Shown piece by piece: positions 56,907-64,000 of a stretch of 64,000 bases of DNA; within the stretch, counting starts at the first letter, position 1; the number at the start of each line of letters is the position of its first letter. The notes beneath the pieces were generated by a model, which was not told the DNA's origin, did no database searches, and saw only the letters and a list, made by a program, of their open reading frames with translations. The stretch comes from Streptomyces sp. TG1A-60. GTDB lineage: Bacteria > Actinomycetota > Actinomycetes > Streptomycetales > Streptomycetaceae. The stretch lies in assembly GCF_037201975.1 (NCBI RefSeq), contig NZ_CP147520.1, positions 3,968,001-4,032,000 on the forward strand, in the 5' to 3' direction. A program made the position numbers and the translations under genes.

Positions 56907-58286
56907 TCACAGCGTGCGCAGCAGCACCGCCGGCTGTTCGACGCAGTCCGCCACGTACCGCAGGAAGCCGCCCGCCGTGCCGCCGTCGCACACCCGGTGG
57001 TCGAAGGTGAGCGAGAGCTGTACGACCTGCCGCACCGCCAGCCCGCCCTCGTGCACCCAGGGCTTGGGGACGATGCGGCCGACGCCGAGCATGGCGGCCT
57101 CGGGGTGGTTGATGATCGGTGTGGAACCGTCGACGCCGAAGACGCCGTAGTTGTTCAGCGTGAAGGTCCCGCCGGTCAGCTGGCCGGGCGTCAGTCTCCC
57201 GGTCCGCGCCGCCTCGGTCAGCCGGGCGAACTCGGCGCTCAGCGACTCCGCGTTCCTGCTGTGCGCGTCCCGTACGACGGGCACGACCAGCCCCCGGTCC
57301 GTCTGCGCGGCGAACCCGAGGTCCACCCGGTCCAGCCGTACGACCTCGCGGGCGTCCGTGTCGACCGTCGAGTTGAGCTCCGGGAAGCGGGCCAGCGCGG
57401 CGGTGCAGATCCGGGCGAGCAGTGCGAGGAGGGAGATCTTCGGGCCGCCGGACGCATTCATCGCCCTGCGGGCTTCCATGAGTTCCGTGGCGTCGGCGTC
57501 CACCCAGCAGGTCGCGTCCGGGATCTCGCGCCGGCTGCGGGAGAGCTTGTCGGCGACGGCGCCACGGACCCCGCGCAGGGGGATGCGGGTGCCGAGGCCA
57601 TCGGCCGGCGGGGAGGCGACGGGGGCGGGCAGAGCCGCCTGGGGCGCCGTGACCGAGGAGGCGTGCGGCGCCGGGACGCCGACGGCCGGGGCCGTCCCCT
57701 GCGGAGCCTCCCGCAGCGCGCGCTCGACGTCCGCCCGGAGGATCAGGCCCTCGGGGCCCGAGCCGTGCAGCGTCCGCAGATCCAGGCCGTTGTCGCGGGC
57801 GAGGCGGCGGACGAGCGGGGAGATGACCGGCACGGGGCCGTCCGGCCGCTCGGGGGCGGCAAGAGCGGGTGCTGTCCGGGCAGCGGCGGGCCGCGCCGTG
57901 CCCGCCGTGGCTCCGGCGGGTTCCGCCGCCCGGACGGGCGCCTCCGGCCGCACCCGCCTGCGCCGTGCCGCAGGCGCACCGGTGCCGTATCCCACCAGGA
58001 CGTTGCCGGAGCCCTCCTCGGCGGTGTCGCCGGAGGCAGAAGCCCCGACCGCCACCGTCAACAGCGGTGCTCCCACGGGCAGTTCCGTGCCCTCCTCACC
58101 GAAGCGGGCGGTGACGACGCCGCCATAGGGGCAGGGGACCTCGACCATGGCCTTGGCGGTCTCGACCTCGACGACGGGCTGGTCGACGGCGACGACGTCG
58201 CCGACCTGCACCAGCCAGCGCACGATCTCGGCCTCGGTGAGCCCCTCACCGAGGTCGGGCAGCTTGAACTCCAGCACCTGGGCCAT
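56907..58286 (-). CDS. bkdC: Branched-chain keto-acid dehydrogenase E2, cluster 2
   Basis: The 459-residue acyltransferase has one lipoyl domain (about 4-80; DQPVVEVETAKAMVEVPCPY), a Pro/Ala/Arg linker, a subunit-binding domain (about 150-190; SPLVRRLARDNGLDLRTLHG) and the catalytic domain ending TFDHRVCDGGTAGGF, with the His-x-x-x-Asp-Gly motif. It is the last gene of the second bkd operon; its ATG shares one base with the E1 beta stop (TGATG). Confidence 0.95.
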   Translation of the reverse strand: MAQVLEFKLPDLGEGLTEAEIVRWLVQVGDVVAVDQPVVEVETAKAMVEVPCPYGGVVTARFGEEGTELPVGAPLLTVAVGASASGDTAEEGSGNVLVGYGTGAPAARRRRVRPEAPVRAAEPAGATAGTARPAAARTAPALAAPERPDGPVPVISPLVRRLARDNGLDLRTLHGSGPEGLILRADVERALREAPQGTAPAVGVPAPHASSVTAPQAALPAPVASPPADGLGTRIPLRGVRGAVADKLSRSRREIPDATCWVDADATELMEARRAMNASGGPKISLLALLARICTAALARFPELNSTVDTDAREVVRLDRVDLGFAAQTDRGLVVPVVRDAHSRNAESLSAEFARLTEAARTGRLTPGQLTGGTFTLNNYGVFGVDGSTPIINHPEAAMLGVGRIVPKPWVHEGGLAVRQVVQLSLTFDHRVCDGGTAGGFLRYVADCVEQPAVLLRTL

Positions 58287-59290
58287 CAGCTCTCCGCCTC
58301 CCACTGCAGGCGCCCCACGGCATCGAGGATCCTGTCGACGCCGGGCAGATGGTGGCGCTCCAGCATCGGCGGCGGATAGGGGATGTCGAACCCGGCGACG
58401 CGCAGCACGGGCGCCTCCAGGTGGTGGAAGCAGCGCTCGGTGACGCGGGCCGCGATCTCGCCGCCCGGACCGCCGTACCCACCGGACTCGTGGACGACGA
58501 CGGCGCGTCCGGTCCGCCGCACCGACGCGGCGACCGTCTCGTCGTCGAAGGGCACGAGCGAGCGCAGGTCGACGACTTCGAGGTCCCAGCCCTCGCCCGT
58601 GGCCGCCTCGGCGGCCTCCAGGCAGACGGGCACGGACGGGCCGTAGGTGATGAGGGTGGCGCTGCGACCGGTGCGGCGCACGGCCGCGCGGCCGATCGGC
58701 TCGACGGCCTGCGGTTCCTCGGGGTTCCAGGAGTCCTTCGACCAGTACAGGCGCTTGGGCTCCAGGAACACGACCGGGTCGTCGGAGGCGATGGCGGCGC
58801 GCAGCAGCCCGTAGGCGTCGGCGACTGTGGCGGGTGTGACGACATGGAGCCCCGGAGTCGCCATGTAGTACGCCTCGGAGGAGTCGCTGTGGTGTTCGAC
58901 GCCGCCGATGCCACCGCCGTAGGGAACGCGGATGGTGACGGGCAGCGGCATCGCCCCGCGCGTGCGGTTGCGCATGCGGGCGACATGGCTGATCAGCTGC
59001 TCGAACGCCGGGTAGGCGAACGCGTCGAACTGCATCTCCACGACCGGCCGGAGCCCGTACATGGCCATGCCGACGGCCGTGCCGAGGATGCCCGCCTCGG
59101 CGAGCGGGGTGTCGGTGACCCGGTCCTCGCCGAACTCCTCGGCGAGGCCGTCGGTGACCCGGAAGACTCCGCCGAGGGTGCCGACGTCCTCGCCCATGAC
59201 GTGCACGGTCGGGTCGGCGGTCATGGCGTCGCGGAGGGCGCGGGTGAGCGCCTGCGCCATGGTGGCGGGCTTGAGAGCGACGGTGGTCAT
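58286..59290 (-). CDS. bkdB: Branched-chain keto-acid dehydrogenase E1 beta, cluster 2
   Basis: The 334-residue subunit shows VHVMGEDVGTLGGVFRVTDG, DTPLAEAGILGTAVGMA, RVPYGGGIGGVEHHSDSSEA, VFLEPKRLYW and RAVVVHESGGYGGPGGEIAA. It is clearly paralogous to the E1 beta of the first cluster. Its ATG overlaps the E1 alpha stop by four bases (ATGA). Confidence 0.96.
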   Translation of the reverse strand: MTTVALKPATMAQALTRALRDAMTADPTVHVMGEDVGTLGGVFRVTDGLAEEFGEDRVTDTPLAEAGILGTAVGMAMYGLRPVVEMQFDAFAYPAFEQLISHVARMRNRTRGAMPLPVTIRVPYGGGIGGVEHHSDSSEAYYMATPGLHVVTPATVADAYGLLRAAIASDDPVVFLEPKRLYWSKDSWNPEEPQAVEPIGRAAVRRTGRSATLITYGPSVPVCLEAAEAATGEGWDLEVVDLRSLVPFDDETVAASVRRTGRAVVVHESGGYGGPGGEIAARVTERCFHHLEAPVLRVAGFDIPYPPPMLERHHLPGVDRILDAVGRLQWEAES

Positions 59291-60423
59291 CGGTGCGCCC
59301 CTTCTTCCTCCGCCGCCAGCTCGGCCCGCAACAGCGCCTCCTGGTCCCGCAGATGCGGGGTGGGCTCGGCGTACACGTGGGCGAAGAGGTCCATGGGGTC
59401 GAGCACCGGGTCCTGGTTCATGCGCTCGCGCAGATCGGCGGCCATCGTCTCGGCGGCGTCCCGCGCGGCCCGGATGCCCGCCTCGTCGAGGAGTTCGCGC
59501 TCGGTCAGCTCGTGTTCCAGGAGCGCGATCGGGTCGTGGGCGCGCCAGGTGTCGACCTCGGCGTCACCGCGGTAGCGGGTCGCGTCGTCGGCGTTGGTGT
59601 GGGCGTCGATGCGGTACGTCACCGCCTCGACCAGCGTGGGGCCACCACCCGCGCGCGCGTGGGCCACGGCTTCGGCGAGCACCTGGTGCACGGCCGCCGC
59701 GTCGTTGCCGTCGACCAGGCGGCCCGGCATCCCGTAGCCGACGGCCTTGTGTGCCAGTGACGGGGCGGCGGTCTGCTTGGCGAGCGGGACGGAGATCGCG
59801 AAGCCGTTGTTCTGGACAAGGAAGACGACCGGGGCCTGCCAGACTGCGGCGAAGTTCAGCGCCTCGTGGAAGTCGCCCTCGCTGGTGCCGCCGTCACCCA
59901 CCAGGGCGAGCGCGACCACGTCGTCGCCCCGGAGGCGTGCGGCGTGCGCGAGGCCCACGGCGTGCGGAAGCTGGGTGGCGAGGGGCGTGCACAGGGGCGC
60001 GACCCGGTGCTCGTGCGGGTCGTAGCCGGTGTGCCAGTCGCCGCGCAGCAGCGTGAGCGCCTGCACGGGGTCGAGGCCGCGGGCGACGGCGGCGAGCGTG
60101 TCGCGGTAGCTCGGGAAGAGCCAGTCGCGCTCTTCGAGGACGAGCGCGGCGGCGACCTCGCAGGCCTCCTGGCCCGTGCTGGAGGGGTAGACGGCGAGCC
60201 TGCCCTGCTTGGTCAGGGCCGTGGCCTGCGTGTTGTAGCGACGGCCGCGCACCAGCTCCGCGTAGAGCCGGCGCAGCAGCGCGGGGTCCGCGTCGGCCAC
60301 CGCTTCGGTGCCGAGCACGCGGTACGGCCGCGCGTCGGGCAGCAGCGGCGCCGGATCCGTGCGGGGCTGCCAGGCGGGCGGTGGTGTCGGGCGGTACGCG
60401 CCCCGCTGCTCCATGACCGTCAT
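59287..60423 (-). CDS. bkdA: Branched-chain keto-acid dehydrogenase E1 alpha, cluster 2
   Basis: The 378-residue subunit has the TPP motif GDGGTSEGDFHEALNF to VQNN, the YNTQATALTKQGRLAVYPSS entrance and YRIDAHTNADDATRYRG. Compared with the first-cluster protein it lacks the basic N-terminal tail. ATG 60423 has GAGGAGG seven bases upstream and is preferred over an upstream in-frame start at 60480. It is the first gene of a tightly overlapping E1a-E1b-E2 operon, divergent from the Lrp-type regulator. Confidence 0.95.
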   Translation of the reverse strand: MTVMEQRGAYRPTPPPAWQPRTDPAPLLPDARPYRVLGTEAVADADPALLRRLYAELVRGRRYNTQATALTKQGRLAVYPSSTGQEACEVAAALVLEERDWLFPSYRDTLAAVARGLDPVQALTLLRGDWHTGYDPHEHRVAPLCTPLATQLPHAVGLAHAARLRGDDVVALALVGDGGTSEGDFHEALNFAAVWQAPVVFLVQNNGFAISVPLAKQTAAPSLAHKAVGYGMPGRLVDGNDAAAVHQVLAEAVAHARAGGGPTLVEAVTYRIDAHTNADDATRYRGDAEVDTWRAHDPIALLEHELTERELLDEAGIRAARDAAETMAADLRERMNQDPVLDPMDLFAHVYAEPTPHLRDQEALLRAELAAEEEGAHR

Positions 60424-60482
60424 ACGGCACCTCCTCGTGGGAGTGGCTCGGGGACACGGCACGGCTGTGACGCGTCTCACCT

Positions 60483-60496
60483 ACCGATTGTTCGGT
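60483..60496. promoter_or_regulatory. PaaR-type operator between bkd cluster 2 and the Lrp gene
   Basis: ACCGATTGTTCGGT is an inverted repeat (ACCGA-N4-TCGGT) that differs by one base from the site inside the paaN promoter at 63292-63305. It lies 60 bases upstream of the bkdA start and 100 bases upstream of the Lrp start, in a shared divergent promoter region. Confidence 0.65.
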
Positions 60497-60597
60497 CGTT
60501 GGCGCATTTTGGCTACAGGCACCCTCAGGCTGTGGACAAACGGTTCTGCGCAGCCTGGAATGAACGCAGTACGTCCACGGCAGGGAGGCGGGGGCAC

Positions 60598-61098
60598 ATG
60601 GCGTCTGAACAAATGGCCGAACCGCCGGAGCACGGCCCGGCCCTGCCGCCCCCTCGACCGCTGGACGCCATAGATCAGGACATCCTGCGCATGCTGCAGG
60701 CCGACGGCCGCGCCTCGATACGGTCCGTCGCCGAACGCGTCCACGTCTCCCGCGCCAACGCCTACGCCCGCATCAACCGCCTCATCGAGGACGGCGTGAT
60801 CCGCGGCTTCGGGGCGCGCGTGAACCACGAGCGCGCCGGAAAGGGCACCTCCGCCTACATCACCCTCAAGATCGTGCAGAACTCCTGGCGCACGGTCCGT
60901 GAACAACTTCGCCAGCTGTCCGGCGCCGCCCACATCGCGCTGGTGGGCGGCGACTACGACGTCCTGCTCCTGGTGCACACCTCGGACAACCGGGCCCTGC
61001 GCGAGGTCGTCCTCACCAAGCTCCAGGCCATCCCGGAGGTGCTCAGCACCCGGACCCTGCTGGTCTTCGAGGAGGAGGACGTGGAACCGGAGGAGTGA
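60598..61098 (+). CDS. bkdR: Lrp/AsnC-family regulator (BkdR type)
   Basis: The 166-residue protein has a helix-turn-helix at about 22-70 (LDAIDQDILRMLQADGRASI, VAERVHVSRANAYARINRLI) and a RAM ligand-sensing domain at about 85-160 (TLKIVQNSWRTVREQLRQLS, VGGDYDVLLLVHTSDNRAL). BkdR-type Lrp proteins control branched-chain keto-acid dehydrogenase genes and respond to branched-chain amino acids; divergence from the second bkd operon supports the same job. ATG 60598 follows GGAGGCGGGGG. Confidence 0.9.
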   Translation: MASEQMAEPPEHGPALPPPRPLDAIDQDILRMLQADGRASIRSVAERVHVSRANAYARINRLIEDGVIRGFGARVNHERAGKGTSAYITLKIVQNSWRTVREQLRQLSGAAHIALVGGDYDVLLLVHTSDNRALREVVLTKLQAIPEVLSTRTLLVFEEEDVEPEE

Positions 61099-61130
61099 CC
61101 GGCGAGGAGACCACAGCCCCCGATAATCGA

Positions 61131-61721
61131 TCAGTCCTGGGCGCGCAGACCCGCGAAGACCAGCTGCGCCACCGCGTCGGACACTTCGCGCTCGCCCATG
61201 CCCCGTCCGTCCGGCCGGTACCACTCCACGATCGAGTTGATCATCCCGAAGACCAGCCGGGTCGCGAGCCGCACCTCCACGTCCCCCCGTACGTCCCCGT
61301 CGGCCGCCGCGGCCTTCAGCAGCTCGGCGACCTGATGGTCGAAGTCCCGGCGCCGCTCCAGGGCCCAGCGCTCTGTGCCGGTGTTGCCCCGCACCCGCAG
61401 CAGCAGCGTCACATACGGCAGTTCGGCGATGAGGACCTCCACCATGCGCCGGACGACGTGCTCCAGCCGCTCCACCGCACGTCCCGCGCGCGCGGGTTCC
61501 TCGTCGAGGATCCCGAAGAGCCCGTCCAGCGCCCGGCTGACGGCCCGCCGCAGCAGCTCCTCCTTGCCCGTGACGTGGTGGTATATCGACGACTTCGAGA
61601 TACCGGCCGCCTTGGAGAGGTGCTCCATGGACGTGCCGTCGTAGCCGCGCTCGTTGAAGACCCGGACGGCGACGGAGAGCAGTGTCTGCGGGGTGTACGT
61701 GTCCCGTTTGGCGGTGGTCAT
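61131..61721 (-). CDS. TetR-family regulator, PaaR-like
   Basis: The 196-residue repressor has the TetR helix-turn-helix at about 10-57 (TLLSVAVRVFNERGYDGTSM, LSKAAGISKSSIYHHVTGKE) and an alpha-helical ligand domain with MINSIVEWYRPDGRGMGERE. Its ATG overlaps the stop of the 3-hydroxyacyl-CoA dehydrogenase gene (ATGA), so it is made together with the pathway it probably represses. Two shared inverted repeats (60483-60496 and 63292-63305) are its probable targets, and phenylacetyl-CoA its probable inducer, by analogy with PaaR. Confidence 0.9.
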   Translation of the reverse strand: MTTAKRDTYTPQTLLSVAVRVFNERGYDGTSMEHLSKAAGISKSSIYHHVTGKEELLRRAVSRALDGLFGILDEEPARAGRAVERLEHVVRRMVEVLIAELPYVTLLLRVRGNTGTERWALERRRDFDHQVAELLKAAAADGDVRGDVEVRLATRLVFGMINSIVEWYRPDGRGMGEREVSDAVAQLVFAGLRAQD

Positions 61722-63235
61722 GAGGAGGTGCCCTCCCGCTTGTCGGAGGCGTAGGCGTGGCGGTACAGCGCGAGGGACGGCGCGTAGCGCCCGGAGGGGT
61801 CGCGTAGGTGCAGGTCGTCCAGGAGGGCGTACGCCCAGTTGCGGCCGAGCCTGCGGCTCCATTCGAAGGGCCCGAGCGGGTAGTTGACCCCCAGGCGCAT
61901 CGCCGTGTCGATGTCCTCCTCGGTGGCCACGCCCTTGGCGACGGCGTCGTGCGCGAGGTCGACGATCCGGGCCACCGTACGGGCGACGATCATTCCGGGG
62001 GCGTCCCCGATGACGCTGACGTCCTTGCCGAGCGCCTGGAACAGCCCGGTGGCCTCGGCGAGGGTCTGCGGGGAGGTGTCCTGGGAGGCGGACAGGGCCA
62101 CGCGGGTGGCCTGGCGGTAGTCGAACGCCAGGTCGAAGTAGACGACGTCCCGGAACTCCACGGAGGTCTGCCCGTCGGCGAGGGCCAGCTGCCCGCCGCT
62201 CGGCAGGACGAGCCGGGTGCCGTGGTCCTCGTCGTCCTCGCGGACCGGGATGCCCGCCTCGCGGATCAGGGTGAGCAGTTCGGAGGCGGGGCCCAGGTCG
62301 CCCTCGGTGACGACGTACGCGGGCGCCTGGGCCCGTTCGGCGGTGTGCGGTTCGGGACGCTCGGCGTCGTCGCCGTAGCCGTACCAGCCCCGCCCCGCCT
62401 TGCGACCGAGCCGGCCGGACTCGACGAGCCGCCGCTGGGCCAGCGAGGGCGTGAACCGCACGTCCTGGAAGAAGGCCTGCCACACGGAGTGGGTGACGGA
62501 CTCGTTGACGTCCTGCCCGATGAGGTCGGTCAGCTCGAACGCGCCCATCCTGAAGCCACCGCACTCCCGCAGGATCGCGTCGAGGGTGGCCGGGTCGGCG
62601 GCCTGCGCCTCGTGCACCGCGAAGGCCTCGGCGTAGAACGGCCGTGCGATGCGGTTGACGATGAAGCCGGGGGTGTCGGCGCACGCGACCGGTGTCTTGC
62701 CCCAGGCGCGGGCCGTCTCGTACGCGCGTGTGGCCGACGTGACGTCGGTGGCGAACCCGGAGACGACCTCGACGAGGGGCAGCAGCGGCGCGGGGTTGAA
62801 GAAGTGCAGGCCCACGAAGCGGCCCGGGTGGCGCAGGGCGCCCCCGATGGCCGTGACCGACAGGGAGGAGGTGTTGGTCGCGAGCAGGCAGTGCTCGCCG
62901 ACGACGTCCTCCAGCGCGCGGAACAGCTCCTGTTTGACGTCCAGCCGCTCCAGGACCGCCTCGACGACGAGGGCGCAGTCCGCGAGGTCGGACAGGCTCT
63001 CCGCGGCGTGCAGCCGGGCGCGCGCGGCGTCCCGGTCGGCGCCGGCCAGACGGTCCTTCGCAACGAGCCGGTCGAGCCGGGCCCCGATCGCCTCCGCCGC
63101 TTCCCGGGCGCGGCCCGGGGCGACGTCGAACAACCGTACGGGGTGGCCCGCGACCAGCGCGACCTGGGCGATGCCCTGGCCCATGGTGCCGGTGCCGACG
63201 ACGGCCACGGGGCTGCTGAGGTCGAGTGCTGTCAT
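61718..63235 (-). CDS. paaH: 3-Hydroxyacyl-CoA dehydrogenase of the PaaH type
   Basis: The 505-residue NAD enzyme oxidises 3-hydroxyacyl-CoA; in phenylacetate breakdown it acts on 3-hydroxyadipyl-CoA. It has the Rossmann motif VAVVGTGTMGQGIAQVAL at the start, LFDVAPGRAREAAEAIG, VVEAVLERLDVKQELFRALE, NTSSLSVTAIGGALRHPGRF and HFFNPAPLLPLVEVV, then a duplicated C-terminal helical domain (GDAPGMIVARTVARIVDLAH, NYPLGPFEWSRRLG). The doubled C-terminus and the length match PaaH/PaaC. It is the first gene of a two-gene operon with the TetR regulator, divergent from paaN. Confidence 0.9.
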   Translation of the reverse strand: MTALDLSSPVAVVGTGTMGQGIAQVALVAGHPVRLFDVAPGRAREAAEAIGARLDRLVAKDRLAGADRDAARARLHAAESLSDLADCALVVEAVLERLDVKQELFRALEDVVGEHCLLATNTSSLSVTAIGGALRHPGRFVGLHFFNPAPLLPLVEVVSGFATDVTSATRAYETARAWGKTPVACADTPGFIVNRIARPFYAEAFAVHEAQAADPATLDAILRECGGFRMGAFELTDLIGQDVNESVTHSVWQAFFQDVRFTPSLAQRRLVESGRLGRKAGRGWYGYGDDAERPEPHTAERAQAPAYVVTEGDLGPASELLTLIREAGIPVREDDEDHGTRLVLPSGGQLALADGQTSVEFRDVVYFDLAFDYRQATRVALSASQDTSPQTLAEATGLFQALGKDVSVIGDAPGMIVARTVARIVDLAHDAVAKGVATEEDIDTAMRLGVNYPLGPFEWSRRLGRNWAYALLDDLHLRDPSGRYAPSLALYRHAYASDKREGTSS

Positions 63236-63283
63236 GTGCGCGATCCTCCCGCACGGGGTTGTCCACAGATGCGGCGGACCCCC

Positions 63284-63311
63284 TTGTCCCGACCGATCGT
63301 TCGGTTACTCT
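63284..63311 (+). promoter_or_regulatory. paaN promoter with embedded PaaR-type operator
   Basis: TTGTCC (63284-63289) and TACTCT (63306-63311) are 16 bases apart; between them lies ACCGATCGTTCGGT (63292-63305), an exact match to the core ACCGNNCGNNCGGT known for the phenylacetate repressor PaaR of Corynebacterium (from memory). A repressor bound here would block RNA polymerase. The divergent paaH start is 57 bases to the left. Confidence 0.7.
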
Positions 63312-63436: not shown

Positions 63437-64000
63437 ATGGCCGCCGAACTGTCCGCGCACACCCTGCTCGCCAAGCACCGGTCCACTCTCGACCAGGCGC
63501 TGGAAGCGATCCGCACGCGCGCGTACTGGTCGCCCCACCCCGAGCACCCCAAGGCGTACGGCGAGAACGGCAGCCTGGGCATGGCCGAGGGCAAGGCCGC
63601 CTTCGACGCCCTCCTCTGCACCCGCCTCGACCTCGGCCAGCCCGGCACCGACGACTGGGTGGGCGGCGAGATCTCGCCGTACGGCCTCGAACTGGGCATC
63701 ACCTACCCGCACGCCGACATCGACACGCTGCTGCCCGCCATGAGAGCCGGGCAGCGCGCGTGGCGCGACGCGGGCGCTCAGGCGCGCGCGGCGGTGTGCC
63801 TGGAGATCCTCAGGCGGATCAGTGACCGCACCCACGAGTTCGCCCACGCGGTCATGCACACCTCCGGCCAGGCCTTCATGATGGCCTTCCAGGCCGGCGG
63901 CCCGCACGCCCAGGACCGAGGCCTGGAGGCGGTCGCGTACGCGTACGCCGAGCAGATCCGCACCCCCGACAACGCCGAATGGACCAAGCCCCAGGGCAAG
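63437..64000 (+). CDS. paaN: Phenylacetate-degradation aldehyde dehydrogenase PaaN, 5' part
   Basis: The first 188 codons of a gene that runs off the window. The protein begins MAAELSAHTLLAKHRSTLDQ, followed by IRTRAYWSPHPEHPKAYGEN, TDDWVGGEISPYGLELGITY and HEFAHAVMHTSGQAFMMAFQ. This is the characteristic N-terminus of the actinobacterial PaaN family, which acts on the ring-opened intermediate of phenylacetyl-CoA catabolism. The catalytic Cys and Glu lie beyond the window. ATG 63437 follows GAGGAG. Confidence 0.88.
   Translation, partial: MAAELSAHTLLAKHRSTLDQALEAIRTRAYWSPHPEHPKAYGENGSLGMAEGKAAFDALLCTRLDLGQPGTDDWVGGEISPYGLELGITYPHADIDTLLPAMRAGQRAWRDAGAQARAAVCLEILRRISDRTHEFAHAVMHTSGQAFMMAFQAGGPHAQDRGLEAVAYAYAEQIRTPDNAEWTKPQGK

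Follow-up and report, generated by a model that had tools for sequence, protein, structure and literature searches.

Conserved palindromes of the PaaR type precede both the phenylacetate genes and the second bkd operon of Streptomyces

The window analysed here is a 64,000-nucleotide stretch of the Streptomyces sp. TG1A-60 genome (chromosome of 7.83 Mb, bases 3968001-4032000), and its neighbours place it in Streptomyces. It contains two intergenic gaps, each of which is occupied by a 14-nucleotide palindrome of the form ACCGA-N4-TCGGT. The genes around them follow the order bkdC2-bkdB2-bkdA2 (minus strand), bkdR (plus), tetR-paaH (minus) and paaN (plus), so that ACCGATTGTTCGGT lies between bkdA2 and bkdR, whereas ACCGATCGTTCGGT lies between paaH and paaN. 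A previous reading of this DNA, made from the letters alone (the sequence-only reading), had located both 14-mers and reported that they differ by a single base; coordinates, placement and the difference (T/C at position 7) are all correct. Based on the comparisons presented below, the two 14-mers form a genuine pair of PaaR-type operators with deep conservation, to which the product of the local tetR gene is predicted to bind. They are the only exact ACCGA-N4-TCGGT palindromes in the window. However, when up to three mismatches are allowed, there are 10 such patterns vs. 11.0 expected from shuffled sequence, and with at most one mismatch there are 5 vs. 3.9. Because these counts are at chance level, the case stands on placement and conservation and not on rarity within the window.

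Conservation was analysed among 80 named Streptomyces loci that were chosen by likeness of the TetR protein only; these are the best 80 of 516 confirmed loci and thus represent close relatives. TetR, PaaH, BkdR, BkdA2 and PaaN are present in all 80. When the window is included, the bkd-side 14-mer is exact in 81/81 bkd gaps and the paa-side 14-mer in 80/81 paa gaps (one locus, L044, differs at two core bases), which is the conservation in related genomes that the sequence-only reading had proposed to look for. Within the same 81 sequences, 71 of the 174 columns of the bkdA2/bkdR gap are invariant, 57 of them among the 160 columns outside the 14-mer, and the longest invariant run (60483-60498) starts with the operator itself. 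In the paaH/paaN gap, positions 63289 to 63308 form the longest stretch on which 80 or more of the 81 sequences agree. The exact bkd 14-mer was also present in 21/21 further Streptomyces, which were selected within the class by their TetR only.

A survey of 247 Streptomycetaceae genomes (16 genera) extends this pattern to the family level. Of these genomes, 241 have TetR, 239 have the exact bkd 14-mer, in almost all cases as a single copy, and 237 have both. The two remaining 14-mer matches are stray ones in genomes without a TetR ortholog (G249 and G273), and none of the 11 query proteins is found there (L175, L176); four genomes (G258, G261, G271 and G275) have neither TetR nor the bkd 14-mer. 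Position was followed in 115 family loci (the 80 and 21 loci described above, L172, and 13 others fetched partly at motif hits). A strict palindrome precedes bkdA2 in 114/115 of these, the exception being L172 with one arm mismatch; it precedes paaN in 113/113 and cluster-linked paaA in 57/58. In 13 genera, the bkd site was seen at its usual position. The paaN operator is framed by TTGnnn-N16-TAnnnT in 107/114 family loci. PaaA/PaaC are encoded in 244/247 family genomes. Genomes with no PaaA/PaaC match (G249, G258 and G261) or only a weak one (G271) likewise lack TetR; thus, TetR and the paa genes are not separable inside the family. G275, which also lacks TetR, is a draft.

Table 1. Genes and sequence elements of the bkd2-paaN region, in window coordinates (position 1 is the first base of the window)
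Feature	Position	Strand	Remarks
bkdC2, E2 component	56907..58286	-	start ATG 58286; alternative GTG 58304 in the open reading frame list
bkdB2, E1 beta	58286..59290	-	pyruvate dehydrogenase (PDH) E1 beta models matched, all below cut-off (NCBIfam)
bkdA2, E1 alpha	59287..60423	-	SCO3831 ortholog by synteny; Pfam E1_dh
Operator 1, ACCGATTGTTCGGT	60483..60496		bkdA2/bkdR gap; 59 bases before bkdA2 start, 101 before bkdR start
Second conserved element	60527..60554		imperfect inverted repeat in window; consensus GGCTGTGGA-N10-TCCACAGCC, by eye
bkdR, Lrp/AsnC-type regulator	60598..61098	+	SCO3832 ortholog by synteny; Pfam AsnC domains
tetR, probable paaR	61131..61721	-	SCO3833 ortholog (PDB 2IAI); Pfam TetR_N and TetR_C_24 over cut-off
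paaH-like, 3-hydroxyacyl-CoA dehydrogenase	61718..63235	-	4-base overlap with tetR
-35-like TTGTCC of paaN	63284..63289	+	by eye
Operator 2, ACCGATCGTTCGGT	63292..63305		paaH/paaN gap, between paaN -35- and -10-like hexamers
-10-like TACTCT of paaN	63306..63311	+	by eye
paaN	63437..64000	+	continues past window end; TIGR02288 PaaN 977.8 vs. cut-off 578.75 bits (whole gene, L001:3438-5147)

Several of the gene names in Table 1 deserve comment. The PaaH-like protein scores above the cut-off of the subfamily model NF006124 and below that of the PaaH equivalog TIGR02279 (565.8 vs. 669.4 bits), so its name is given by context. PaaA, which is encoded outside the window, passes its NCBIfam cut-off. 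In the NCBIfam scan, BkdA2 exceeds the cut-off of the PDH E1 alpha model TIGR03181 (420.7 vs. 411.35 bits), and bkdC2 matched dihydrolipoyl acyltransferase models, all below cut-off. Translational coupling of tetR to paaH, as the sequence-only reading had suggested, is plausible: paaH ends at 61718, tetR starts at 61721, and the two share an ATGA.

The TetR protein of the window is probably PaaR. It matches 2IAI (SCO3833) over its full length, followed among solved structures by 3VPR (Thermus PfmR). Its gene overlaps paaH and neighbours paaN. Orthologs occur in 75/246 genomes of the class (28/103 genera), and paaA or paaN lies nearby in 42 of the 53 loci with such orthologs outside the family (46-65% identity). 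The strict palindrome is also found in other families, where it precedes paaA in 9/35 and paaN in 3/8 cases; the control palindrome was found in none. Two genomes of one outer genus form a natural pair that agrees with TetR being the reader of the palindrome. G263 has TetR, a palindrome before paaN and another near paaA, whereas in G273, which retains paaN, paaA and a PaaH-like gene, a TetR ortholog is missing and a 19.9-kb stretch contains no strict palindrome. Comparative genomics thus supports the earlier suggestion that the repeats look PaaR-like and that the local TetR reads both.

Regulators described for other bacteria point in the same direction. PaaR of Burkholderia cenocepacia (BCAL0210) is a TetR-type protein whose operator, ACCGACCGGTCGGT, is reported to lie between the -10 and -35 elements of paa promoters, where its mutation was tested. 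This operator shares arms and spacing with the window sites, and its promoter seat with operator 2 (PMC2770484). The likeness to the window TetR lies in operator and family; in that study, the repeats were judged to be specific to the paa clusters of the genome, with no bkd target (PMC2770484). Within the genus, PaaR of S. pristinaespiralis (SSDG_03033), which is presumed to be orthologous to the window TetR, is described as a TetR-type regulator of paa genes, with a putative site (AACGA-N4-TCGGT) one letter away from the arms found here (PMC10933834). Corynebacterium glutamicum PaaR, a TetR-type paa repressor in an actinobacterium, is similar by description (PMC9493321, PMC10933834), and PaaR is stated to recognise phenylacetyl-CoA (PMC4424350). 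Streptomyces BkdR (SCO3832), the gene for which lies beside the same gap, is reported to control the branched-chain dehydrogenase complex and, being of the Lrp type, belongs to another protein family than the window TetR (PMC8176718, PMC12323332). The name BkdR covers two unrelated proteins, as it is also used for XNR_4213 of S. albus, which is of the TetR type. XNR_4213, together with PccD and AccR, is described as exerting TetR-type control over acyl-CoA or branched-chain degradation in actinobacteria. However, all three are other proteins than the window TetR, and the PccD and AccR motifs (T/ATGACGG/CTGT/CTGT/A and GTTAA-N6-TTAAC, respectively) are unlike that of the window (PMC10933834).

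It is therefore likely, as far as sequence comparison allows, that the product of 61131-61721 is PaaR, which would bind ACCGA-N4-TCGGT and repress the paa genes together with bkd2, bkdR or both until phenylacetyl-CoA appears. This model is built on anatomy, conservation and co-occurrence, from which we infer binding, repression, the effector and the promoter choice on the bkd side. PaaR, as a TetR-type repressor, would bind its palindrome as a dimer; since the operator fills the space between the paaN -35 and -10 elements, a bound dimer would shut paaN. The divergent paaH-tetR promoter would probably be closed as well, so that PaaR would limit its own synthesis. Operators of the same type precede paaA of the phenylacetyl-CoA epoxidase operon. 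An additional operator may then have arisen within the family in the bkdA2/bkdR gap, where the same repressor would hold down the bkd2 operon, bkdR or both, with phenylacetyl-CoA as the releasing signal and BkdR as a further regulator acting on this gap. The 60527-60554 inverted repeat is a candidate BkdR site or a piece of the bkdR promoter. Moreover, an MtrA site has been predicted in the corresponding S. coelicolor gap (window 60424-60597; PMC12323332), which means that the gap may receive at least three inputs. By eye, no convincing -35 element is directed towards bkdA2, and bkdA2 and bkdR are for this reason not separable as PaaR targets from sequence; very probably, PaaR controls one of them or both. 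Thus, the part of the sequence-only reading according to which one TetR governs both the paa genes and bkd cluster 2 stands, on comparative genomics, as far as a same-type site in the bkd2/bkdR gap is concerned, whereas regulation of the cluster itself keeps the status of a prediction.

Several observations weigh against this model. Four family genomes have TetR without the exact bkd 14-mer (G246, G263, G279 and G393). In G393, ACCGATTGTTCGCT sits in the bkdA2/bkdR gap; in G263 and G279, BkdR and bkd2 are present and the gap holds no palindrome. Outside the family, no strict palindrome is present in 26 of the 35 paaA upstream regions that have a TetR ortholog nearby, which indicates that operators drift or that not every ortholog reads the motif. 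In the NCBIfam scan, TetR scored above no model's cut-off, and no TetR-type PaaR model was listed. Finally, a single form of the bkd core is shared by 114/114 matching loci, whereas four forms occur among the paaN cores and two among the paaA cores. Such an invariant core exceeds what a PaaR operator alone requires, and it is likely that these bases are under a second constraint, imposed for example by another protein or by a promoter hexamer.

Other readers of the bkd site have to be considered. It could be bound by another TetR-type protein encoded in the genome, in which case its likeness to the paa site would stem from similar DNA-binding domains. Indeed, there are 20 TetR-like matches in the genome, and related TetR proteins can share operators, as described for TTHB023 and TTHA0167 (PMC7022988). 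However, the nearest paralog is only 30% identical, it is the SCO3833 ortholog that co-occurs with the site in 237/247 genomes, and AccR, which is reported to act on acyl-CoA genes, uses the different site given above (PMC10933834); this explanation is improbable. The single form of the bkd core would also be expected if the 14-mer were kept mainly as a promoter element, with the invariant TTGTTC that it contains serving as the -35 towards bkdR and the likeness to a PaaR operator being secondary. Nonetheless, both arms are no less invariant than the core, and no conserved -10-like hexamer was seen by eye at the usual spacing, which leaves this proposal with little credit.

A further candidate is BkdR itself, which might read both 14-mers and so join bkd2 to the paa genes. 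Operator 1 lies inside the bkdR/bkdA2 gap, and the reported role of BkdR in controlling the dehydrogenase complex (PMC8176718) would fit such an arrangement. Genes similar to the bkd2 E1 alpha gene occur in 78/246 class genomes, and 40 bkd2 stretches from other families were compared, comprising 23 from 22 TetR-bearing genomes and 17 from genomes without TetR at threshold. In 20 of these 40 stretches (14 + 6), bkd2 has a BkdR-like gene next to it, yet none of the 40 holds the strict palindrome; among usable bkd2 upstream regions, the count is 0/39 (0/22 with TetR and 0/17 without). Conversely, palindromes accompany paa genes of other families where BkdR was undetected (L117, L125, L133 and L134), and G258, in which a BkdR ortholog is present but TetR, PaaA/PaaC and a bkd2 ortholog are missing, shows no palindrome in 19.9 kb. 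Since the palindrome is absent despite adjacent BkdR-like genes, BkdR is very unlikely to be its reader. As judged from these distributions, the bkd operator was either gained within the family or lost from its outer genera, and its occurrence follows that of PaaR and not that of BkdR. Similarity of the two 14-mers by chance, for which one could cite the equal frequency of patterns with 1-3 mismatches in the window and in shuffles, is ruled out by conservation (exact in 81/81 gaps, present in 239/247 genomes, and the reversed pattern absent among the matches listed).

Returning to PaaR, the 7.83 Mb genome contains 16 palindromes of this type, compared with 3 for the reversed control, and three of them cluster in a region of about 8 kb (C1:4028483, 4031292 and 4036482). 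The third, ACCGATCGATCGGT, precedes an acyl-CoA dehydrogenase gene; it was rejected as a regular operator, as a strict palindrome occurs upstream of that gene in just 8/23 loci. Because paaA occupies that place in many genomes, this site is possibly a relic of a paaA operator. Directly before an acyl-CoA dehydrogenase gene beyond the window lies TAGAACCTGTTCTA (L001:8619-8632), which resembles a KstR-type site; approximately 180 bases upstream of that gene lies the third ACCGA palindrome. Near matches elsewhere in the genome (L002-L008) were set aside, as no obvious catabolic target was seen by eye. The paaA gene of this genome (C1:7393345) carries only a variant, ACCGAACGAATGGTCGGT, which is similar to ACCGAACGAACGGTCGGT near paaA of G263. 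A second paaA/paaC pair (C1:1435676-1437673; G000; L090, L091 and L094) is separate from the paaABCDE-type operon at 7.39 Mb, and no such palindrome was found in the upstream stretch examined. By eye, an apparent acyl-carrier protein gene lies upstream of this second pair, which may be part of a biosynthetic cluster.

What bkd cluster 2 itself does is a separate matter. The suggestion of the sequence-only reading, according to which it may serve catabolism rather than fatty-acid starter supply, has the standing of a hypothesis. It is possible, although tentative, that the cluster functions, wholly or in part, as a dehydrogenase of aromatic 2-oxo acids and produces phenylacetyl-CoA directly from phenylpyruvate, in which case PaaR would switch both the supplier and the consumer of its own inducer, and bkd2 and paa would constitute one phenylalanine-degrading module. 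The operator common to bkd2 and paa counts in favour of this idea, as does the PDH-type E1 alpha score of BkdA2. So does gene proximity in three other families, where a bkd2 ortholog lies within 20 kb of TetR (G168, G221 and G028; 3/24 other-family genomes with both). The distance is about 5 kb in G221 and 16 kb in G028. A single row near TetR in G168 combines bkdA-B-C with a palindrome, a gene for a transporter and, as judged by eye, paaJ, F, H and Z. In G273 (L173), bkdA-B-C2 is followed on the same strand by paaN with 96 bases between them; neither a TetR ortholog nor BkdR was found there. A precedent may be seen in PglB/C of S. pristinaespiralis, a PDH-like complex said to turn phenylpyruvate into phenylacetyl-CoA (PMC7089894). 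However, in 21/24 genomes the distance between bkd2 and TetR exceeds 20 kb or the two lie on separate contigs (often of drafts), and the bkd2 substrate is not settled by sequence. The one expression hint on a catabolic role comes from S. albus, in which L-valine is reported to strongly induce the catabolic route, whose major complex is "BCDH II", a locus left unnamed in the passage concerned (PMC8176718).

In one open library, no paper was found that joins PaaR to bkdA in Streptomyces, that names SCO3833, or that deals with phenylacetic acid, TetR and Streptomyces bkd/branched-chain regulation or with phenylacetyl-CoA, phenylpyruvate and the branched-chain dehydrogenase complex in Streptomyces. 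PaaR-type operators are known as such, and an operator of this kind at the second bkd operon and bkdR appears to be new within the literature searched, which did not include the 2015 paper on a Streptomyces PaaR. If the proposed regulation is true, a second, probably aromatic-responsive input would be added to the gap that BkdR occupies, and the breakdown of phenylalanine and phenylacetate would be coupled to the supply of acyl-CoA in almost all of the family genomes sampled here. Such a link would also offer a handle for precursor supply.

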